10,720 nt of DNA from positions 1 through 10,720 of the forward strand of contig JAQCGA010000080.1 of NCBI GenBank assembly GCA_027619145.1, read 5' to 3'. The position numbers were made by a program, and so were the translations under genes. The notes beneath the pieces were generated by a model, which was given only the letters and a program-made list of their open reading frames with translations, searched no databases and was not told the origin of the DNA. Position 1 is the stretch's first letter; each line of letters begins with the position of its first letter. The stretch is from a bacterium (lineage in GTDB: Bacteria > Latescibacterota > UBA2968 > GCA-2709665). This document shows, piece after piece, positions 918-10,539 of the stretch.

Positions 918-2186
918 TCAGGCCTCAAAATATGCCCGGAGCCCGGCATGGGGTGGGGTTCGGTCTCGGGCTTCGGTGCCAGCGATGGTGAATGCGAGAC
1001 CCATTGGGGCAGGGTCTGTGTCATCCGGCCGTGCGTTGAAGGTGGTGCCGCCCCAACGGATTCCCGAGACGACCACGTTGAACCGGGTAAATTCACCTGT
1101 GATCCGGTTGAAAGACAGGTGGCCAAGAAGGTTGGCTTCGTACCCGCGCTCGTTCATCATGCAGCACATCTGGCCTCGTTTGTGCGGTGCGTACGAGGGA
1201 GGTTGGGCACACCATTCGCCGTATTCGCAGAGGTCCACGTGACCAGAAAGACGCAGGTCTACCTGTTGCGGGCTGACGTGGGTTGCTGCGAGTTGAATAT
1301 CTGCTTCGCGAACCGCTTCGGGTGTCCAGGGTGAAGTTTCGCCACGGACCATGTCCAGGAGATGAAAGCGGACCAGGCGGCGTGCAACGGGGCCGTAGAG
1401 CGGGAACGAGTCACCGGGTGCAACGTTGTCCGGGATCAAGGAGAGCTTTTCTTCTCGGGTGATCCAGACGTAGTCCTGGTTGTGGGCATTCGAGCGCCAG
1501 TCCTGGGGGCGTGCATCGTTGGGTCGTGGTAAGTCAACGAACCCCTGGTGGAGCACCAGCCCGTCTTCAGGATAGACCCAGGCAAATCGGGCGTCGCGCT
1601 GGATATTTTCTACCTCTGTCGTTTCTTTTTGAGTGCTGCGGTGGTCCCAGTTTTCAAGGGCGCTGCCCAGCATTTCAAGGAGTTGTTCCGGGTCGCGTGT
1701 ATGCCGCGTGCCGAGGAGTTCGCCTTCGGTTGTCGCTACAAAGAGGCCCTGGTGGCATTCGCCGTGATCTACGGCTGCCATTCGAGCTCGGGCTTCATCG
1801 AAGCTGAGTTTGAAGCGGCCCTGCCAGGATACCAGGCGCAGGAAGCTACCTTCTTCGTCGTTCTGACGCTGGAGGTGGCTGATGTTGGCGGCTACGGGTA
1901 TAAAGCGTGTAGAGAGCAGTTCGATCACACGCGGATCGTCGAATGCGAGCGCACGGCCCGCAACGCCGTTGTTTCAAACACAGCCCAGTGGGTGCCCGTT
2001 CATGGCCCAGATGAAGAGGGGTTTTTCCGTACGGGCTGCTTCCTGTCGCCCAGGCCAGAGTTCACCTATCCAGGGTACCTGCGTCCAGCGTTCTCCAGAA
2101 GCTTTGGGGCGGCAGGCTTCGAAGAGTGTTTCGAAGGTAGTGTCTGTTAAAAGGGGTAACGAGTTTTGCAGTGTGGGTGCTGGCAT
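918..2186 (-). CDS. Probable selenoprotein: thioredoxin-like protein with Cys-Val-Sec motif, UGA at codon 71
   Basis: One 422-residue reading frame runs in a single frame from ATG 2186-2184 to TGA 920-918, interrupted only by TGA at 1976-1974 (codon 71). AGGAGG lies 6 bases ahead of the ATG. Before the UGA is a beta-strand-like KPLFIWAMNGHPLGCV; after it come NNG and a helix/strand pattern ending DDPRVIELL...RFIPV. This is the layout of thioredoxin_7-like folds, in which the redox motif sits between the first strand and its following helix. The motif here is C69-V70-U71. A further thioredoxin-like segment follows (GLFVATTEGELLG..RDPEQLLEML, about 147-178). A C-terminal domain of about 230 residues that I do not recognise carries a Cys-rich patch (C320, C326, C341, C342). 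The likely role is thiol/disulfide or peroxide redox chemistry; the substrate is unknown. A nonsense mutation or sequencing error is the alternative, but the hairpin after the UGA and the intact downstream frame argue for selenocysteine. The usual automatic call would be a truncated 336-residue protein starting at GTG 1928. Confidence 0.8.
1944..1962 (-). promoter_or_regulatory. Candidate bacterial SECIS hairpin
   Basis: In the minus-strand mRNA, UGCGGGC (1962-1956) pairs with GCUCGCA (1950-1944) as 7 base pairs including one G-U. The loop is the five bases CGUGC (1955-1951). The loop G is 20 bases after the UGA. Bacterial SECIS elements are known to be short hairpins just downstream of the UGA with a G in the first two loop positions about 16-37 bases away, as in E. 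coli fdhF. All these criteria are met by eye; no folding energy was computed. Confidence 0.7.
1974..1976 (-). other. In-frame UGA, candidate selenocysteine codon 71
   Basis: TGA on the minus strand is preceded by TGT GTT (Cys-Val) and followed by AAC AAC GGC (Asn-Asn-Gly). It falls at the expected redox-active position of the thioredoxin-like domain. No other gene in the window has an internal TGA and many end with TGA, so a reassigned genetic code is not the explanation. Confidence 0.78.
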
Positions 2187-2192
2187 CGGCAA

Positions 2193-2198
2193 CCTCCT
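2193..2198 (-). promoter_or_regulatory. Ribosome binding site of the selenoprotein gene
   Basis: A perfect AGGAGG on the minus strand is separated by 6 bases from ATG 2186-2184. It places translation start upstream of the UGA, which means ribosomes must meet the UGA. It also argues against the downstream GTG at 1928 as the natural start. Confidence 0.85.
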
Positions 2199-2390: not shown

Positions 2391-3047
2391 ATGAAGTTGT
2401 TGATTACAGGGGCGGACCGACCCCTTGGGAAGCTGGCTGTGCATCATTTTGGCGCGGCCCATACGCTGCGGCTGACGGGGATCGCGGCCGGTGGAGATGT
2501 TCAGGTGGCAGACCTGCGTGAACCGGAGGAAGTGGCTTCACTGGTTGCTGGAATGGATGCGATCCTGCATCTGGCGGAGTACGATCCTGCTCCGGTATTG
2601 GGGCCCACGGCGGAGCAAGATCGGCTGGAGATTGCGGCACGCGGTTCGTACGTATTATTGGAAGAGGCGCGTAAGGCGGGTGTGGACCGGGTGGTGCTGG
2701 CCAGTACGCTTGCGCTGATGGACGCCTACCCGGAAGAGTATGTCGTGGACGAGAACTGGATGCCCAGGCCGGGGCCACATGCCGATTCGTTGGCCCCTTA
2801 TATGGCGGAAATTGTATGTCGTGAGTTTGCCCGCGAAGGTGGGATCCGGTGTGTGTGTCTTCGTTTCGGGACGCTGGGGGATCTGACGCCGGAAGAAGAT
2901 GCGTTGCAGGCTCTGGATCGAGCGCTGGCTGTGGAATTCAAAGACCCGGGATACCGCTGGTTTCTATTGCATGTTGCAGCATCCGATCGGTTTTTGTGCG
3001 GCGAAGCCCGGCGTGTTCTGCAGTTGGACCGGAAAGGGGGCGCATGA
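2391..3047 (+). CDS. NAD-dependent epimerase/dehydratase-like SDR with degenerate motifs
   Basis: A 218-residue extended-SDR-like protein and first gene of the operon, with AGGAGAGG about 8 bases ahead of ATG. The N-terminal Rossmann motif is TGADRPLG (6-13), in which Arg10 replaces the usual middle glycine. D41 in the VADL strand and the A-I-L-H-L-A strand (57-62) fit an NAD-binding fold, and AST (104-106) is the usual Ser/Thr position. The catalytic Tyr is present (Y137) but the YxxxK lysine is replaced by Ile141. It is also shorter than typical epimerases (about 300 or more residues). It overlaps the next SDR by four bases (ATGA) or abuts it, so the two may form a heteromer. It could be a binding or regulatory subunit or have altered chemistry. 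The family assignment is good; the activity is uncertain. Confidence 0.85.
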   Translation: MKLLITGADRPLGKLAVHHFGAAHTLRLTGIAAGGDVQVADLREPEEVASLVAGMDAILHLAEYDPAPVLGPTAEQDRLEIAARGSYVLLEEARKAGVDRVVLASTLALMDAYPEEYVVDENWMPRPGPHADSLAPYMAEIVCREFAREGGIRCVCLRFGTLGDLTPEEDALQALDRALAVEFKDPGYRWFLLHVAASDRFLCGEARRVLQLDRKGGA

Positions 3048-3850
3048 TGCCTGCAATTGAGAGTGGAAAGGTGTGCATCTTTGGTGCTGGAGGGCCTGTG
3101 GGAGCCTCTGCCGCCCGGTTTCTGGAGAAGGACTACACATTGCGGTTGACGGATATTCGAATGGTGGACGAGATCAAGGAGCCGCAGTCGAAGCACGCGC
3201 CCATGCCCATCCAGCCAGAACCCCCCCACGAGTGGCGGAGGGTGGATATTACGAACTACGAGCAGGTGCTGGCGGCCGCACAGGGGATGGATGCACTGAT
3301 CAATGTGACGGTGGTGCGCCCCGTACTGGCAGGTGCATTTAGCGTGAATCTGATAGGTGCTTATAATGTGATGAAGGCTGCGGCGGCCTGCGGGATCCGG
3401 AGGGTTATTCATACCGGGCCCCGACATATTTATTTGGGGTTTGAGGGCGATTACAGGAACGAGTTCGACATTCCAGACGACATCCCGCTGCAGCCGGGGA
3501 GCAATCTGTATGCATTGACCAAGCATCTGGGTGGGCAGGTGGTGCGCGTATTTGCGGAAGAGCATGGGATTGAAGTCATTTGTTTTCTGTATTGTGGATT
3601 TGCTGCCAGCCATGGCGGTGACAGGGTGGATGGCAGCGGGATTGGGCCGTTTCACACATCCTGGGAAGATACAGGGGAGGCATTCTGGTACGGGCTTCGT
3701 GCACCGGACATGCCCAGGCCGTACGAAGTGTTTGATATTGTGGCGGATCTTCCGCACCGGAAGTGGGGAACCGACAAAGCCGAGCGGTTGCTGGGCTGGA
3801 AACCCCGGTATAACTTTGAACGGTTGTACCGGCGCAAAACAGGCGTGTGA
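3047..3850 (+). CDS. NAD(P)-dependent epimerase/dehydratase (extended SDR)
   Basis: A 267-residue oxidoreductase or epimerase likely to act on a nucleotide sugar or other polyol-type substrate. It has a canonical nucleotide motif GAGGPVG (13-19), with acidic D36 ending the second strand, which favours NAD. The catalytic Tyr-Lys pair is intact in YALTK (Y155, K159), with T123 in the Ser/Thr position. The C-terminal KAERLLGWKP block is typical of UDP-glucose-4-epimerase-like proteins. Two ATGs occur in tandem: 3044 overlaps the upstream stop as ATGA, while 3047 lies 6 bases after AGGGGG and is preferred. The difference is one residue. It is slightly shorter than standard epimerases. The precise substrate is unknown. 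Being next to a degenerate paralogue suggests that the two work on the same compound. Confidence 0.88.
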   Translation: MPAIESGKVCIFGAGGPVGASAARFLEKDYTLRLTDIRMVDEIKEPQSKHAPMPIQPEPPHEWRRVDITNYEQVLAAAQGMDALINVTVVRPVLAGAFSVNLIGAYNVMKAAAACGIRRVIHTGPRHIYLGFEGDYRNEFDIPDDIPLQPGSNLYALTKHLGGQVVRVFAEEHGIEVICFLYCGFAASHGGDRVDGSGIGPFHTSWEDTGEAFWYGLRAPDMPRPYEVFDIVADLPHRKWGTDKAERLLGWKPRYNFERLYRRKTGV

Positions 3851-3874
3851 TCCGGTACAGACCGGGGAGGGTTT

Positions 3875-4621
3875 ATGCCCAGAGGGCGTTGCCATTTTGC
3901 TCTGCTGGCGCGTTTCCACGACGAACTACGGCGCGTACGGCCCGTGGACGCAGCGCTGGTGGACCGACACCTGCCGGAACTGATTGCGGGTGCCGCTGCA
4001 CCAGACGGGTTGCGGTATGTGGCAAAGATGGGCAAGTTTGCCACGCATTTTTATACAGAGAACCGTCGTGAAGCGTGGGGGCAGGCTGTTGCCGGTTTGT
4101 TCCGGGCGCATCCCGACCTCGCGGCTCCGGAGCGAATTGCAGATGCGGATCGGGTGCTGGTATTGGGCTATATTTCCCACCTGACCGTAGATGAAGTGTT
4201 CCGAGATGTGGTTACCGTGCACGTTCACGGGACAGAAGACTGGCGACCCGTGATCGAAGGGTTGTGGTCTATGGTGGATGAATTGCCGTTTCGAAATTCG
4301 GATTATGTAAGCGGAATTGACCGATTTTCGCGGCGCGATCCGCTGGGATTTATTGATTGCGAAAAGGTGGGCGAATTCCTGGCGCTGATTCAGCCCTGGA
4401 TGGTAGAAGAAGATCCCTGGGAAATAGAACGCATCTATTTGCGGCTGATTGGGAGCGAAGTACCCGAGGCACAAGCTCGGCAGGCCTGGATGGAAAACCG
4501 AGGTCGTGCAGCGTCTTTTTTAGATGATCAACGACGAGATGCATTCGTAGCAGAGGCGGTTCGTATTGGGTTAGAAGAAGCCGTGCGTTTTCTGGACGGA
4601 GAGTACCGTGCAGATACTTGA
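3875..4621 (+). CDS. Zinc-dependent phospholipase C-like family protein
   Basis: A 248-residue protein matching the Zn_dep_PLPC fold (PF00882-type) by its spaced metal ligands. These are H7 near the N-terminus, GAAAPD with D44, HFYT with H58, and GYISHLTVDE with H102 and D106. Members are known or predicted metal-dependent hydrolases, often annotated hypothetical, and many do not act on phospholipid. No signal peptide is evident (MPRGRCHFALLARF), so it is probably cytoplasmic. The start ATG follows GGGGAGGG closely. It sits 24 bases after the SDR stop. Its place among oxidoreductases hints at hydrolysis of an ester or phosphoester in the same pathway, which is inference. Confidence 0.7.
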   Translation: MPRGRCHFALLARFHDELRRVRPVDAALVDRHLPELIAGAAAPDGLRYVAKMGKFATHFYTENRREAWGQAVAGLFRAHPDLAAPERIADADRVLVLGYISHLTVDEVFRDVVTVHVHGTEDWRPVIEGLWSMVDELPFRNSDYVSGIDRFSRRDPLGFIDCEKVGEFLALIQPWMVEEDPWEIERIYLRLIGSEVPEAQARQAWMENRGRAASFLDDQRRDAFVAEAVRIGLEEAVRFLDGEYRADT

Positions 4622-4651
4622 TATCTGAAGGAACCATAGAGGGAGGGAAGT

Positions 4652-5041
4652 ATGCGCGTAGAACATGTTGCATTTTTGGTGGACGATCCGGTGGCTATGT
4701 CCAAGTGGTACTGCGAGCATCTTGGAATGAAGGTGGTTCGGTATGGAGGGCCGCCCACGCATATGACGTTCTTGCAGGATTCATCCGGTAAGACGATGTT
4801 CGAAATTTATACGAAAGATGATCTGGAGACACCGGACTACGCCTCGATGCATGTATCTGTGCTCCATCTGGCATTCTGCGCAGACGATGTGAAGGCCGAA
4901 CGGCAACGCTTGATTGATGCCGGAGCTACCCCGGCGCAGGATGTGTTCACCACCCCCGCCGGAGATGAGATGACAATGGTTCGAGATCCGTGGGGACTGA
5001 CGGTGCAGTTGTTGAAACGGAAAGAACCTATGGGTGCGTGA
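4652..5041 (+). CDS. VOC-family (glyoxalase/dioxygenase fold) protein
   Basis: A 129-residue protein with two beta-alpha-beta-beta-beta modules. It resembles glyoxalase I in placing metal ligands at H5 (VEHVAFLV), E51 (MFEIYT) and H72 (LHLAFCADDV). The fourth position is Gln119 (TVQLL) where glyoxalase I has Glu, so the metal or reaction may differ. The closing DPWGLTVQLL is typical of VOC enzymes. Possible roles are lyase, epimerase or isomerase; the substrate is unknown. The ATG is preceded by GGGAGGG (4641-4647). It lies 30 bases after the previous gene. Confidence 0.85.
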   Translation: MRVEHVAFLVDDPVAMSKWYCEHLGMKVVRYGGPPTHMTFLQDSSGKTMFEIYTKDDLETPDYASMHVSVLHLAFCADDVKAERQRLIDAGATPAQDVFTTPAGDEMTMVRDPWGLTVQLLKRKEPMGA

Positions 5042-5098
5042 AGGGGGCAGGGATTCGTATGAAGATTCATGACTCGAACCATTTGATCGGGAGAGAAA

Positions 5099-6145
5099 AT
5101 GCCTGTTTTTGAGGTTGGGAAACTGGAAGGAGATTGTGCGCAAATCTTTGAAGGCGCAGGGCTGACCGGGGAAGAAGCAAGGCGGATCGCGAATTCACTG
5201 GTGGTTTCGAATTTGATGGGTCACGATTCCCACGGGGTGGTTCGTGTGGTGCAGTACGTGGATGCCCTGAGCGAAGGGATTGTGAAAGCAGATCGGCAGA
5301 TCCAGATTACCCGAGAAGCACCGGCTTCGGCGGTGGTGGATGGTGGGTGGGGATTTGGGCAAACGGTGTGTACGCAGGCGATGGATCTGGCAATCCAAAA
5401 GGCCCGGACTACGTCAGTGGCTGCCGTGGAGTTATACAACAGCAGTCATATTGGCCGTTTGGGCGAATATGTGGAGCAGGCCGCGCAGGAAAAGATGATC
5501 GGGATTGTGATGTGCAACAACCACGGAGGCGGCCGCTTGCTTTCGCCGTTCGGTGGAATCGATTCGCGAATGTCGCCCAATCCGGTGGCCGTAGGCGTTC
5601 CAACGGGTAAAGAGTACCCCATTGTGGTAGATATGACGACCAGCGTAGTGGCCGAAGGGAAAATCCGGATGAAGCGTAACCTCGGCGAAGATTTGCCGGA
5701 AGGTTGGGCCATCAACTCGGAAGGCAAACCGGCGAAGGTACCGGCTGACTTTTACGGACCGCCTCGTGGCGCGATTCTTCCATTTGGCGGGAACAGCGCA
5801 CACAAAGGATATGCACTGGCCGTGGTGATTGATATTCTGTCTGGAGCGCTGGGAGGCGCGGGATGCAGTCGTGAGGGTGCGCCATCAGGTGGGAACGGTG
5901 TTTTCTTGATGGCCATTCATATTGAGGCGTTTACAGGTGAAGATCGCTTCAGTTCCGATGTAGATACATTTGTGGATTATCTGAAAAGTTCACGTTTGCT
6001 TCCCGGGTTCAATGAGATTTTGATGCCTGGCGAAATGGAGCATCGGATGCGTCAGAAGCGCGAGGCCGAAGGGGTATTTGTAGATGACGAGACCTGGCGA
6101 CAGATTTGTGAGACCGGGCAGAAGGTGGGCGTGGATCTGGCGTGA
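5099..6145 (+). CDS. Ldh_2-family (malate/L-lactate/sulfolactate-type) dehydrogenase
   Basis: A 348-residue NAD(P)-dependent 2-hydroxyacid oxidoreductase of the Ldh_2 (MdH/YlbC/ureidoglycolate dehydrogenase) family. Landmarks are GHDSHG (41-46), the catalytic-His region SSHIGRLGEY (H117), NPVAVGVP (161-168), DMTTS (178-182) and GGNSAHKGYALAV (230-242). Known members oxidise malate, L-lactate, (R)-sulfolactate, ureidoglycolate or 2,3-diketogulonate, and the sequence does not decide among them. GGGAGAG (about 5090-5096) precedes the ATG. Length is normal. The next gene begins 24 bases later. The family is secure, the substrate open. Confidence 0.9.
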   Translation: MPVFEVGKLEGDCAQIFEGAGLTGEEARRIANSLVVSNLMGHDSHGVVRVVQYVDALSEGIVKADRQIQITREAPASAVVDGGWGFGQTVCTQAMDLAIQKARTTSVAAVELYNSSHIGRLGEYVEQAAQEKMIGIVMCNNHGGGRLLSPFGGIDSRMSPNPVAVGVPTGKEYPIVVDMTTSVVAEGKIRMKRNLGEDLPEGWAINSEGKPAKVPADFYGPPRGAILPFGGNSAHKGYALAVVIDILSGALGGAGCSREGAPSGGNGVFLMAIHIEAFTGEDRFSSDVDTFVDYLKSSRLLPGFNEILMPGEMEHRMRQKREAEGVFVDDETWRQICETGQKVGVDLA

Positions 6146-6169
6146 GCAGCAGTAGGAAGGAGGTACATT

Positions 6170-6940
6170 GTGGCATCTATTAAAATCACTCTGCTGGGGC
6201 ATGCGTCGTTTCGGTTTGAGCCGGATACGGGTGAGGTTGTCTATTTTGATCCCTGGCTGGACGGTAACCCTGCTTGCGACCTGTCTGTGGCCGATGTGAA
6301 AGAAGCAGATGTTGTGGTGGCAACCCATGGTCATAACGATCATATTGGAGATTCGTTTGCGATTTGCAAACAGACGGGTGCAATTTTTGTTGGAAACTAC
6401 GAGCTTTGTCTGGTTGCGGCAAAGAGCGGGCTGGAATTTGGACGCCAGGCAATCCCGATGAATCCGGGGGGGACAGCGGTGTTGCCTGGTTTGAAGATAA
6501 CAGCTACACAGGCGTTCCACTCGTTGTCTATGTCTGCGAACCAGTCTCTGGGAGATGTGCCGGGAGATCTGTATTTTCGGCCAGACGGCGCTGTGTGTGG
6601 GATGGTGTTGCAGTTTGAGAACGGGATTACGGTGTACGATACATCGGACACAACGGTGTTTGGGGATATGGCGTTGATCAGCCAGATGTATGGACCGCAG
6701 GTGGCGATTTTGCCCGTGGGAGGAAAGTTTACTATGGGGGTGCGTGAGGCAGCCCGAGCGGCCAGTTTGATCCGGCCAGACGTTGTGATTCCCTGCCATT
6801 ATGGGGAAGCTGTAGGTCAACCTGCAGATATTGATGCTCTGGCGAAAGGGGTTTCGTTTCTTTCGGCCAACACGCGGGTGGTGAAGCTGGAACCAGGACA
6901 AGCCCTTTCGTACACGGCGAGCCATTTTGGAGTGGGGTGA
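6170..6940 (+). CDS. UPF0173/UlaG-like metal-dependent hydrolase (metallo-beta-lactamase fold)
   Basis: A 256-residue MBL-fold protein. LGHASFRF (9-16) and FDPWLDGNP (26-34) are typical of the UPF0173/YtkL group. Metal ligands are H53-x-H55-x-D57-H58 (THGHNDH), H117, D160 (YDTSDT) and H210 (PCHYGE). Relatives include L-ascorbate-6-phosphate lactonase (UlaG) and uncharacterised hydrolases. A lactone or phosphoester would be a plausible substrate class next to the dehydrogenases. The start is GTG with GGAGG in AAGGAGGTACATT just ahead. It is likely cytoplasmic. Confidence 0.87.
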   Translation: MASIKITLLGHASFRFEPDTGEVVYFDPWLDGNPACDLSVADVKEADVVVATHGHNDHIGDSFAICKQTGAIFVGNYELCLVAAKSGLEFGRQAIPMNPGGTAVLPGLKITATQAFHSLSMSANQSLGDVPGDLYFRPDGAVCGMVLQFENGITVYDTSDTTVFGDMALISQMYGPQVAILPVGGKFTMGVREAARAASLIRPDVVIPCHYGEAVGQPADIDALAKGVSFLSANTRVVKLEPGQALSYTASHFGVG

Positions 6941-6967
6941 CACGTACGCAGGTGCATGCGCAAGATT

Positions 6968-6974
6968 AAGGAGG
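6968..6974 (+). promoter_or_regulatory. Ribosome binding site deciding the reductase start
   Basis: AAGGAGG lies 5 bases ahead of TTG 6980, which is in frame with the reductase. The upstream ATG 6956 has only weak CAGG ahead of it. TTG 6980 is therefore the probable start. Confidence 0.75.
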
Positions 6975-6979
6975 GCCGT

Positions 6980-7798
6980 TTGCCACAGAACCTGTTGACG
7001 AATGCGGTTGTGACGCAAAAAATTGAGGTGACACCTGAATTGATTATTCTTCAGGTGACGCCAGAAGGATGGGAATTGCCCGCTTTTGAAGCCGGTCAAT
7101 TTGCTGTGCTGGGGCTCCCCGGATCTGCGCCAAGAAGTACCTGGTCAGATCCAGAAGATGAAACTCCAGAACCGGATAAATTAATTCGCAGAGCGTATTC
7201 GATTGCATCGTCTTCTGTTGCACGAGAATTCATGGAGTTTTATATCACTGTGGTTCGTTCGGGGGCGCTCACGCCGCGTCTGTTTGCTCTGGAAATGGGA
7301 GACCGTGTCTGGCTCGGGCCAAAAATGACGGGGATGTTTACCCTGGAGCAGGTGCCAGAAGAAGCCCACTTGTTGCTGGTTGCAACCGGGACGGGGCTGG
7401 CTCCGTATATGTCGATGTTACGTACGCATCTGTCCAGTCAGAGCAGGCGGCGTTTTGCGGTGTTACACGGTGCCCGACATTCCTGGGATTTGGGGTACCG
7501 GTCGGAGTTGACAACGATGCAGCAGTTGTGTCCGAACTTTACGTATTTGTCACTTATCAGTCGCCCGGCGCGTGAGCCGGTGGCCTGGAGCGGGATTACG
7601 GGATACGTGCAAGATTTGTGGACCGGGGGGCACCTGGACCGGGCGTGGGGGTTCCATCCAACGGCAGGCGACACGCATGTATTTTTGTGTGGGAATCCGC
7701 AGATGTGCGAAGATATGCTTTCGCTGTTAGAGCAAGAAGGGTTCAAGGAGCAAACGCGTAAACAAGATGGTGTAGTGCACGTTGAACGGTACTGGTAA
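6980..7798 (+). CDS. fpr: Ferredoxin/flavodoxin-NADP+ reductase
   Basis: A 272-residue FAD enzyme transferring electrons between NADPH and ferredoxin or flavodoxin. FAD-binding RAYS (71-74, RRAYSIASS), the NADP-binding TGTGLAPYMSM (136-146), CGNPQMC (237-243) and the terminal VHVERYW are all typical of the bacterial Fpr (subclass I) reductases, whose C-terminal aromatic stacks on the FAD. The start was moved from ATG 6956 to TTG 6980 because of the strong AAGGAGG. Length is near the normal 250-280. An acidic/proline-rich insert (about 52-68: TWSDPEDETPEPDK) lies between the first strand and RAYS. No ferredoxin or oxygenase partner is in the window, though the operon continues beyond it. The stop TAA overlaps the next gene's Shine-Dalgarno site. 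Confidence 0.9.
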   Translation: MPQNLLTNAVVTQKIEVTPELIILQVTPEGWELPAFEAGQFAVLGLPGSAPRSTWSDPEDETPEPDKLIRRAYSIASSSVAREFMEFYITVVRSGALTPRLFALEMGDRVWLGPKMTGMFTLEQVPEEAHLLLVATGTGLAPYMSMLRTHLSSQSRRRFAVLHGARHSWDLGYRSELTTMQQLCPNFTYLSLISRPAREPVAWSGITGYVQDLWTGGHLDRAWGFHPTAGDTHVFLCGNPQMCEDMLSLLEQEGFKEQTRKQDGVVHVERYW

Positions 7799-7807
7799 GG
7801 AGGATTG

Positions 7808-9427
7808 ATGGCTGGCGAAGAATCCAGGTTGTACGACGGAATTATTGTGGGCGCGGGGCACAATAGCCTGGTGCTTCAAGCGTACCTGTGTCAGGCCGGG
7901 ATGGATGTGTTGTGCATCGAGCGGCGCGATATTGCGGGGGGTGGCCTGGCTACCATGGAGGACCCAAGGCACCCTGGGTTTCTGCACAATACACATTCGT
8001 TTTTCCACCGGGCTTTAGATCAGATGCCGTGGTACGTGGATCTGGAACTGGAGCGCCATGGTGCGGTGTACCTTGAGCCAGAACTGAACGTGGCGTTGCT
8101 GCTGGAGGAGGATGAAGTCCTGGAGTGGTGGACGGACTTCGAGAAGACGGCGGTTTCGTTTGAGCGGTTCAGCCCGGAAGACGCCCAGACACTACGCCGC
8201 TGGCGTGAAGAGTTTTTGCCAATTGTTCAGAAGATTTTGGTACCTGAGTCTCAGTCTCCACCGCTTCTGCCCGAGCGGAGACAGGCTCTTCTGGAGCAGA
8301 GTAAAGAAGGTAGGCTTTTGCTGGAAGCCAGCCGGTTGTCTCCACTGGAGTTTGTTCAGCGAGAATTCAAACACCCCGTGGTACAGGCGGGGTTGCTTTT
8401 TTTTAATGGGTTGCGGGAGGTAGATTTGCGGTGTCCGGGGTTTGGACACCATATTGCGGGGCTTCTGGCCAGTTCTGGCAAAGCGCAGATGTGCGTGGGC
8501 GGCTCTGCCGCGCTTGCCCGAGCGCTGGTTTCGGCGGTACAGGAACAGGGGGGTGAGGTGAAGTTGCAGACTGAGCCTCGACGGTTCCTGGTGGAAGGTG
8601 GACGGGTAGTGGGTGTAGAAACAGCAGAAGGGGAGGTGTTTCGAGCACGTCATTTTGTGGCGTCCGGGTTGAACCCTCATCAGACGTTTTTGGATCTGAT
8701 GGACGAGGATGTTCTGCCGAGTGAATGGAAGGACCGCGCACGGAATTTTAAGTATAATGTGATTGCGCCGCTGTTCGGGTTGAACTTGAATCTCAATGCT
8801 CCACCCAGGTACAAGGCTGCGGAGAAACACCCGCAACTGGATGAAGCGTTCATGGTGATTATGGGGCTGGACCATATGGACCGGTATATTGAAATGGTTC
8901 AGGCGCATGAGCAAGGTGTGAAGCCGCCCAATATTATGTGGGGTGCCTGTCCAACGGTGTTCGATCCGTCTCAGGCTCCGGCGGGGAAGCATACGGCGTT
9001 TATGTGGGAGAAGGTACCGTACCGGCTGAACGGGGACGCGAAAAATTGGGACAAAGAACGGGAGCAACTGGGCCAGGAGATGCTGGCGGTCTGGCAAGAG
9101 TACGCACCGAACCTGGAGACGGATGTGATTGACTGGTTTGCACGGAGTGCCCTGGATGTGGAGCGCACGTTTCCCAATATGCGAGAGGGCGATCTGTTGA
9201 TTGGGGCATTTACGAATGGGCAAATTGGATACGATCGTCCTTTTCCGGGAGCCGGGCACTACCGGGGGTACTTGCAGGGGCTGTACCTGTGCGGGTCCTG
9301 TTGCCACCCAGGTGGAAATATTACGGGGTTACCCGGGTACAATTGCGCGCAGGTCCTCTCCGAAGATCTGGGGCTGGATGCATCGTGGGCACCCGGGTCC
9401 GTTGAAGAAGGGTTGGAGCGGTTGTGA
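7808..9427 (+). CDS. Phytoene desaturase-like FAD-dependent oxidoreductase (COG1233 type)
   Basis: A 539-residue flavoprotein of the CrtI/PYROXD2-like group. The N-terminal FAD motif is VGAGHNSLV (14-22), with ERRDIAGGGLA following the second strand (IER, acidic ribose binder). The CrtI-type C-terminal FAD signature is LCGSCCHPGGNITGLPGYN (about 494-512). Members oxidise or desaturate hydrophobic or cyclic substrates; many outside carotenoid pathways are uncharacterised. No carotenoid partner genes are nearby, so carotenoid work is unlikely. The start is ATG 7808, with TAAGGAGG (7796-7803) overlapping the previous gene's stop; a TTG one codon earlier is too close to it. The cysteines SCCHP are unusual where many homologues have S-x-x-H. 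Confidence 0.85.
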   Translation: MAGEESRLYDGIIVGAGHNSLVLQAYLCQAGMDVLCIERRDIAGGGLATMEDPRHPGFLHNTHSFFHRALDQMPWYVDLELERHGAVYLEPELNVALLLEEDEVLEWWTDFEKTAVSFERFSPEDAQTLRRWREEFLPIVQKILVPESQSPPLLPERRQALLEQSKEGRLLLEASRLSPLEFVQREFKHPVVQAGLLFFNGLREVDLRCPGFGHHIAGLLASSGKAQMCVGGSAALARALVSAVQEQGGEVKLQTEPRRFLVEGGRVVGVETAEGEVFRARHFVASGLNPHQTFLDLMDEDVLPSEWKDRARNFKYNVIAPLFGLNLNLNAPPRYKAAEKHPQLDEAFMVIMGLDHMDRYIEMVQAHEQGVKPPNIMWGACPTVFDPSQAPAGKHTAFMWEKVPYRLNGDAKNWDKEREQLGQEMLAVWQEYAPNLETDVIDWFARSALDVERTFPNMREGDLLIGAFTNGQIGYDRPFPGAGHYRGYLQGLYLCGSCCHPGGNITGLPGYNCAQVLSEDLGLDASWAPGSVEEGLERL

Positions 9428-10539
9428 ACCCGACGTTTTCGTATTTGACAGATGTGTATTTTGAGGCCGGTGCCATCCGGTGTATTCCGGAATTGCTGGT
9501 TCGTTTTGCCATACGGCGACCGCTGGTGGTCACCGATCCTGGGCTGGTAGAACGTGGGTTGACTTCGCTACCAGGTCTGATGGGAATGCCCGTATTTGAC
9601 GGCGTGCGGACGAATCCCACGGAAGCCCAGGTTTTGAGTGCTCTGAAGGTTTATCGGGACGAGGGTTGTGACGGGCTTGTGGCACTGGGAGGTGGGTCGC
9701 CCATCGATCTGGCAAAGTGCGTGGGGATTCTGGTGCATCATTCAGAGCCGCTGGCTTCTTATGCGTTGTTGAACGGTGGAGTTTCGCGTATTACAGACAG
9801 GGTACCGCCGTTGATTGCGATCCCGACGACGGCGGGGAGCGGAAGTGAGGTGGGACGGGCGGCGCTTGCAACGCTGACTTCGGGCGAGAAGATGGGTTTT
9901 CTGAGTCCGCATGTACTCCCGAAGACCGCTGTGTGTGATCCGGAATTAACGCTGAGTATGCCGCCGGGGTTGACTGCTGGAACAGGGATGGATGCCATTT
10001 CCCATTGTGTGGAGACGTTTTGCAGTACGCGTACCAATCCAATTGCAGACGCGATTGCGCTGGATGGGCTGGAGCGCGGCTGCGCTTTTCTGGAGCGGGC
10101 GGTTCAAGCGGGCGACGATCTGGAAGCCCGCACTGAGATGATGCTGTGTTCCCTGGAAGGCGGGCTGGCATTTCAGAAGAGTCTGGGCGCGGTTCACAGT
10201 TTGAGCCATCCGCTGGGTGGGTTGGATAAAGGGTTGCATCATGGGACCTTGAACGGGCTGTTCCTTCCGGCTGTGCTGCGGTTTAATGCGGACTTTTGCG
10301 CCGGGAAGTTCGATGAGATGGCTCGGCGGTTGGGCGTTGTATCTGGTTCCATGCTGGCGGATTATTTTGAGGCGTTGAACCAACGGTTGGGATTGCCACG
10401 TACACTCACTGAGATGGGAGTTACAGCAGAGGACCTGGAGCCGCTTGCGGCCAGGGCGGCGGCAGACCACTGTACGCCTACGAATCCACGCCCGCTGGAC
10501 GAGGCGGCCTGCCGGGCATTGTATCACTCTTTGCTTTGA
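9424..10539 (+). CDS. Iron-containing alcohol dehydrogenase
   Basis: A 371-residue group III (Fe-ADH) dehydrogenase. The NAD-binding signature is GGGSPIDLAK (89-98), and PTTAGSGSE (134-142) forms the second site. Metal ligands match D190 and H194 (GMDAISHCVE), H258 (AVHSLSHPLGG) and H272/H273 (LHHG). There is one extra residue between HPLGG and HHG compared with FucO-type enzymes, a variant also seen in other subfamilies. It interconverts an alcohol and an aldehyde or ketone. The GTG start overlaps the previous stop by four bases (GTGA), indicating translational coupling. Length is slightly under the common 380-390. The substrate is not predicted. Confidence 0.92.
   Translation: MNPTFSYLTDVYFEAGAIRCIPELLVRFAIRRPLVVTDPGLVERGLTSLPGLMGMPVFDGVRTNPTEAQVLSALKVYRDEGCDGLVALGGGSPIDLAKCVGILVHHSEPLASYALLNGGVSRITDRVPPLIAIPTTAGSGSEVGRAALATLTSGEKMGFLSPHVLPKTAVCDPELTLSMPPGLTAGTGMDAISHCVETFCSTRTNPIADAIALDGLERGCAFLERAVQAGDDLEARTEMMLCSLEGGLAFQKSLGAVHSLSHPLGGLDKGLHHGTLNGLFLPAVLRFNADFCAGKFDEMARRLGVVSGSMLADYFEALNQRLGLPRTLTEMGVTAEDLEPLAARAAADHCTPTNPRPLDEAACRALYHSLL

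Follow-up and report, generated by a model that had tools for sequence, protein, structure and literature searches.

A predicted DsbH-related thioredoxin-like selenoprotein and its almost Sec-only relatives from Latescibacterota to Verrucomicrobiota

The stretch of DNA analysed here (the window, 10,720 nucleotides of contig JAQCGA010000080.1) contains a gene with one UGA inside its frame. The explanation that best fits the evidence as a whole, and that very probably holds, is a 422-residue protein, in which a SECIS-guided selenocysteine (Sec) at residue 71 would lie in a DsbH-related thioredoxin-type domain and take part in a Cys69–Sec71 redox cycle. For one part of this explanation the case is stronger still: judged from the sequence comparisons, the UGA at codon 71 is almost certainly read as Sec, which makes the gene a bacterial selenoprotein gene. 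The features of the gene are as follows.

918–2186, minus strand: predicted selenoprotein gene of 422 codons, with Sec as codon 71 and a terminal TGA stop at 920–918; 13 of 13 homologous loci have the TGA.
1974–1976, minus strand: TGA as codon 71, the predicted Sec codon, which lines up with the leading Cys of CxxC in DsbH.
1980–1982, minus strand: codon TGT of Cys69, the proposed partner of Sec71; Cys69 is invariant in a 14-row and a 16-row alignment.
2193–2198, minus strand: Shine-Dalgarno sequence AGGAGG, 6 nt before the ATG.
1944–1962, minus strand: putative SECIS hairpin in the mRNA, UGCGGGC-CGUGC-GCUCGCA, with 7 bp and a 5-nt loop, the loop beginning 18 nt after the UGA.
1641–2090, minus strand: thioredoxin-like N-terminal domain, about residues 33–182 (approximate, estimated limits), compared with DsbH domains by hhalign at a probability of 91%.
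921–1640, minus strand: conserved C-terminal part of unassigned kind, about residues 183–422, conserved in the 14-row and 16-row alignments and with no Pfam match in the window protein.

The frame runs on the minus strand from the ATG at 2186 to 918, and the TGA at codon 71 is its only internal stop, standing in the motif IWAMNGHPLGC-V-U-NNG. Across the same bases, the five remaining frames contain 4, 9, 15, 12 and 11 stops. A preliminary description had reported a 422-codon frame with a single UGA and a perfect Shine-Dalgarno site before its ATG; its coordinates and wording were right on both points. It had also predicted that routine annotation would truncate the gene. Mechanical ORF calling splits the gene into ORFs of 85 and 336 amino acids. 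A first search for homologues gave 49 proteins, none of which exceeds 351 amino acids, a length that leaves no room for the region ahead of the UGA.

Comparison of homologues at codon 71, which had been suggested beforehand, favoured the Sec reading. All 13 loci of named genomes have TGA at the aligned codon, as do all 49 distinct family loci that were read at the Sec site, and Cys was found there in one protein, P0051. The records of the 13 loci, which came from a scan of named genomes, are titled Latescibacterota/Latescibacteria, Gemmatimonadetes/Gemmatimonadota, Kiritimatiellia and Verrucomicrobiales. Three genomes with Gemmatimonad titles (G003, G004 and G009) were counted with Latescibacterota because they came up in a phylum search that had the Latescibacteria genome G007 at its centre. 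The count of 49 leaves aside second gene copies (L034–L037, L039, L042–L045, L052–L054, L076, L105 and L113–L115) and L041, whose 87-base stretch is identical to that of L040; no full-length match lacking a stop at the site was omitted from it.

P0051 (396 amino acids) was obtained from a profile search and is a full-length homologue with 32% identity over 389 columns and Cys at the Sec place (GHPLGCTCNNG). It is known from a protein record, in which Sec prints as C, and its Cys is taken to be genuine because ordinary gene callers would have cut a gene containing UGA. A search with P0051 gave no further full-length Cys form among about 8000 candidates scored, and the four other relatives that it returned (303–336 amino acids) lack the active-site part and are uninformative. 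Each protein search scored only about 8000 candidates, and more Cys forms may exist. In a tree of P0051 and 48 loci (L060 omitted), P0051 was placed among the Sec forms L048–L051 with support of 97/94. This position suggests a change from Sec to Cys, on a long branch of unsure placement.

A hairpin follows the UGA. The bSECIS rules, in the part of PMC13188914 that sets them out, are a loop of 3–9 nt, a stem of 4–16 bp, a G in the first two loop positions, a distance of 16–37 nt from the UGA and an MFE of at most −7.5. With its 5-nt loop CGUGC, 7 bp, distance of 18 nt and −10.6 kcal/mol, the window hairpin falls within these limits. The stretch 1930–1976 had been named in advance as the place to look for a SECIS, and the covarying, SECIS-like hairpin lies inside it. 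The SECIS alignment has 24 rows, which are 22 of 25 stretches (without L055, L058 and L059) together with L003 and L049. The retained rows include L060, which has a frame break further downstream. A stem of 6–7 bp around a 5-nt loop, the loop beginning 18 nt after the UGA, is folded by 22 of the 24 rows, the exceptions being L057 with 5 bp and L060 without a hairpin. Taken by itself, the 23-nt core misses the limit of −7.5 kcal/mol in 9 of 24 rows; the 45-nt pieces all reach −9.0 or lower.

Pairing within the hairpin is conserved through changes of sequence. Over the 21 distinct rows, 91.8% of cells are paired. Double changes occur in 34 cells, compared with 11.6 in shuffles, and covariation reaches a score of 0.640, compared with 0.296; none of 500 shuffles reached any of these three values. 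Two weaker measures gave smaller differences, with pairs changed on both sides at 6 versus 3.8 (a value that 23 of 500 shuffles attained) and pair types at 13 versus 11.5 (attained by 88 of 500). When the partner strand was slid by 1–3 columns, pairing fell to 26–57%, and RNAalifold returned the six inner pairs independently. As a control for protein constraint, 5638 placements were scored in a codon alignment of 23 genes (L060 omitted), with stems of 6 bp and loops of 3–8 nt only. The hairpin had the highest pairing of all, 99.3%, and at least 85% pairing together with as much covariation was seen only for it and for the same helix shifted one base outward. The loop contains an Arg codon, which is CGT in all 24 rows; of the 334 Arg codons counted over nine of the genes, this site included, CGT accounts for 52. 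Members with a GETU motif (L055, L059, L084, L118 and L119) instead have a candidate hairpin with a GGUC loop further downstream, as seen in their sequences and single-sequence folds.

Sec machinery accompanies the family. Eleven genomes hold the 13 named loci, since L004 and L010 share genomes with L001 and L009. Among them, tRNA-Sec(UCA) was found in 10, selB over its cut-off in 10, and selA and selD in all 11. In 10 of the 11 (G001–G009 and G011) SelD has an internal TGA, which is the known pattern of Sec-containing SelD. In 14 control genomes the tRNA-Sec model passed its cut-off in 5, selB in 2, selA in 1 and selD in 2. Because the tRNA-Sec model passes in 5 of 14 controls, its score alone is unspecific, and the ARAGORN UCA call was relied on. 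G011, the genome of L013, had neither selB over the cut-off nor a Sec tRNA; this MAG may be incomplete, because its selD lies in two pieces on two contigs. Across Latescibacterota, selB was over the cut-off in 44 of 64 genomes, including 18 of 18 carriers. None of the 20 selB-less genomes carries the family, and 26 of the 44 selB-positive genomes are without it. The chance of this co-occurrence is 2.9e-4 under the assumption of independent genomes, which does not hold. In the class of G306, selB was over the cut-off in 15 of 15 carriers versus 0 of 10 comparison genomes, the latter hand-chosen (9 of 16 genomes with only weak matches, and G308).

The N-terminal half resembles DsbH/DUF255 (PF03190). 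Pfam gave no match in the window protein. When Pfam was run on 14 members, two matched Thioredox_DsbH (best E 0.005) and one matched Thioredoxin_7 (E 0.096), all below the curated cut-offs; L086, L082, L117, L118 and L123 likewise gave Thioredoxin_7 matches below cut-off, and L086 scored 16.8 of the 27 bits of the PF03190 gathering score. In a single hhalign comparison of the family with nine DsbH domains, the probability was 91% and E was 1.2e-7. In a joint alignment of 28 of the 49 family loci with 9 of 14 PF03190 loci, the Sec of all 28 family rows falls on the first Cys of the CxxC in all 9 DsbH rows. A profile search of solved structures gave one match at E 0.13 and identified no solved relative. 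The profile comparison and the joint alignment support a DsbH/DUF255-related domain of thioredoxin type in the N-terminal half, with Sec at the predicted place of the nucleophile. The thioredoxin-like character claimed at the outset thus finds backing in the DsbH/DUF255 profile comparison and in the sub-threshold Pfam matches of relatives, although not in any Pfam match of the window protein itself. The C-terminal domain had been described as fused to this half; it proved instead to be a conserved portion of the aligned members.

No gene among the 49 has a Cys at +3 from Sec, so the CxxC active site is absent. A Cys is found 1–4 residues before Sec in 48 of 49 genes; the commonest position is −2 (32 genes), followed by −1 (11), −4 (4) and −3 (1). 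With the Cys at −1 to −4 over a constant Sec column, Sec stays and its Cys partner moves. In L055 the 10 residues ahead of Sec contain no Cys, so that a model with a resolving Cys is not universal. The CxU motif highlighted in the preliminary description is present in the window protein, but its spacing does not define the wider family.

From these data a mechanism can be proposed. SelB and tRNA-Sec, directed by the hairpin behind the UGA, would insert Sec at residue 71, a step supported by the conservation, the covariation and the machinery in relatives. Sec would stand in for the nucleophile of CxxC, its first Cys, as the profile and multiple alignments indicate. The second Cys of CxxC is missing, and the upstream Cys69 may serve as the resolving partner; this role is suggested by its conservation and by its shifting position among subfamilies. 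The selenolate would then attack a disulfide, a peroxide or a similar substrate, and the resulting Cys–Sec selenenylsulfide would be reduced by thioredoxin or another thiol donor. The conserved C-terminal part could bind the substrate or a partner, which is a guess. On this basis, we infer that the protein acts as a thiol-disulfide or peroxide reductase with a Cys–Sec pair.

It is conceivable, although unlikely, that the protein is a selenoprotein in which Sec binds a metal or metalloid or has a structural or regulatory role, and does not take part in thiol-disulfide or peroxide chemistry. CU motifs also occur in metal-related selenoproteins named in the catalogue of PMC13188914, namely MerB-like SaoL, HgcA and MbdU. 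Further, the C-terminal part is unassigned, and inspection by eye revealed no obvious redox partner among the neighbouring genes. However, Sec sits on the nucleophilic Cys position of a thioredoxin-type domain, and Cys69 and the Sec site are the only invariant Cys/His positions in the 16-row alignment. The reductase with a Cys–Sec pair remains the preferred reading.

Three other explanations, which concern the UGA itself, were considered and rejected on sequence evidence. That the UGA is a true stop between two separate proteins, or lies in a pseudogene frame, is very improbable. Such a stop would agree with the splitting of the gene by mechanical ORF calling and with the database proteins found first, which start after the UGA, but coding conservation extends on both sides of the UGA, and TGA in 49 of 49 loci, the covarying hairpin and the full-length Cys homologue P0051 all argue against it. 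A genome-wide altered code, with TGA standing for another amino acid, has next to no probability, since the gene itself and several neighbours terminate in TGA, the long neighbouring ORFs of the window are open under table 11, and the SECIS and Sec machinery accompany the family. An error of sequencing or assembly at 1974–1976 is just as hard to credit, because all 13 loci of other genomes share the TGA at this codon, which speaks strongly against it.

In Latescibacterota the gene was found in 18 of 64 genomes at 20 places, and each of the 20 has one TGA inside the frame. In the tree, no locus stands closer to the window gene than L003 (65% identity). G010 is the Kiritimatiellia MAG, of the phylum Verrucomicrobiota in GTDB. 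In its phylum, 3 of 387 sampled genomes matched, two of them with TGA members; in its class, 8 of 345 genomes matched and TGA members were present only in G010, which has five such places, the frame being broken in one of them. In the class of G306, which belongs to the same phylum, a broader profile matched 31 of 384 genomes at 42 places. All 20 places with E of at most 4.9e-16 contain the TGA, as do three weaker places (6.4e-8 to 1.2e-6) that fall in a CU branch. The 19 stop-free places have E of at least 2.4e-6 and span only the thioredoxin stretch or the last ~40 positions. Of the seven among these 19 that were aligned, four carry CHWC and are of DsbH type, and two are thioredoxin-like proteins of other kinds with CxxC; the seventh, L095, is a remnant of the C-terminal end. 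The remnant (L095:1504–1626, minus strand, G611) covers about 40 residues of the C-terminal end of the family, and no partner part for it was found within 3120 bases of the locus. G522 has a short C-terminal match that resembles it. Both are perhaps decayed copies.

Several members on the Verrucomicrobiota side (L012, L086 and L117) have N-termini that look like signal peptides by eye, and the window protein has none, so the family may serve two compartments. A related branch (L058, L122 and L123) has the motif E-F/Y-C-U-A-N-G, and, as judged by eye, the stretch after its UGA could fold into a hairpin whose loop contains CGUG. L122 and L123 have HEAT-like N-termini, below cut-off, and matched no NCBIfam family at its cut-off. 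Further CU-type subfamilies have the motifs NCUQNG (L086, L087, L088 and L121), GVCUAAA (L085 and L120), GCUTAG (L116) and ERCUVFA (L089). At L116:1456–3858 (minus strand), a sulfatase domain (PF00884, E 1.8e-58) lies upstream of the Sec member in the same frame and is separated from it by an unread stretch, so that a fusion is at most possible. P0052, from Limisphaerales, carries a PF06439 domain. Its end coincides with the expected place of the family's UGA, and it is probably the truncated annotation of a fusion selenoprotein.

No conserved operon or neighbourhood was seen by eye in the ORF lists around 14 loci. Judged by eye, a similar HEAT-type lipoprotein gene and a peptide-deformylase-like gene lie near L003. 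In the window, an inverted repeat with T-runs on both strands (861–902, by eye) lies between the convergent HEAT and selenoprotein genes and is likely a two-way terminator. Rfam gave eight matches on the window, all below the gathering scores; the best, Thr_leader near 861–902 (33.4 bits versus 55), falls on this terminator-like hairpin and was set aside as a chance match. Divergent from the selenoprotein gene, a same-strand gene run occupies 2391–10539 on the plus strand. Its first part comprises two epimerases, a Zn-dependent PLPC-like protein (sub-threshold), a glyoxalase and an Ldh_2 dehydrogenase, and the rest a metallo-beta-lactamase fold, an NAD-binding oxidoreductase, an FAD-dependent/amine oxidase and an Fe-ADH.

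Taken together, the relatives probably form an unrecognised, almost Sec-only superfamily of DsbH-related thioredoxin-like enzymes. In this superfamily, Sec would be fixed, the Cys partner would have moved among −1, −2, −3 and −4 by subfamily, and the SECIS would be placed differently in at least one subfamily. Its range would extend from Latescibacterota into Verrucomicrobiota, Kiritimatiellia included, with as many as five copies in one genome, and methods that rely on Cys/TGA pairs would pass it over. To our knowledge, the bacterial groups that carry it are little studied and not known for selenoproteins. If the reading is true, a selenoprotein family is added whose members appear in the searched protein collection mostly as pieces starting past the UGA. 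Since Sec is almost never swapped for Cys, the question of why Sec and not Cys is used becomes directly testable when Sec and Cys versions are set side by side with the natural Cys form P0051. The Cys partner that moves around a fixed Sec also offers a natural experiment on the geometry of selenenylsulfides. With so few Cys forms, selenoprotein finders based on Cys homologues would tend to filter the family out. For deep-Sep, the passages of its paper on the homology step indicate that this step may remove selenoproteins without Cys homologues (PMC12013277).

The family is likely absent from print. NCBIfam has no model that the window protein matches, and none of the 119 prokaryotic selenoprotein families catalogued in PMC13188914 fits by name, motif and domain, as far as their descriptions there allow comparison. 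In the open-access literature on selenoproteins, with Latescibacter, Kiritimatiell and Verrucomicrobi included, no title or abstract opening among the matches listed points to the family, and the motif strings matched no paper in it. PMC4807772, on a Porphyra planctomycete, places its selenoprotein candidates in a supplement, and overlap of these with the family is possible.

Among known selenoproteins, GrdA is named in the deep-Sep paper as the one earlier case without Cys homologues (PMC12013277). The family is nearly as Cys-free as GrdA, which by its catalogue name and function is a different protein, the two being set apart by description only. Trx7/PDZ (NF041199) is also a Thioredoxin_7-type selenoprotein, and the distant paralogue L086 matches its thioredoxin part at E 0.043. 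However, L086 scores 12.7 bits versus a cut-off of 300, the window protein has no match, and the motif is CxxU in NF041199, as given in the catalogue entry of PMC13188914, versus CxU in the window protein. The VPGUxxT protein (NF041383) likewise has Sec in a thioredoxin-like protein and drew sub-threshold matches from L089 and L123, but at 11.9 and 15.5 bits versus a cut-off of 275; its Sec motif differs, and it is not matched by the window protein. The DsbH/DUF255 family, for which no PF03190 match was reported in the carrier G001, resembles the N-terminal half across the aligned domain, with Sec on its first CxxC Cys. Unlike DsbH/DUF255, the members have Sec in place of this Cys, a Cys upstream of it and none at +3, and they score below the Pfam cut-off. 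The two have in common the stretch F..DP.V...LN..F.PV, and the solved relatives of DsbH type (PF03190) are 3ira and 7tkv.
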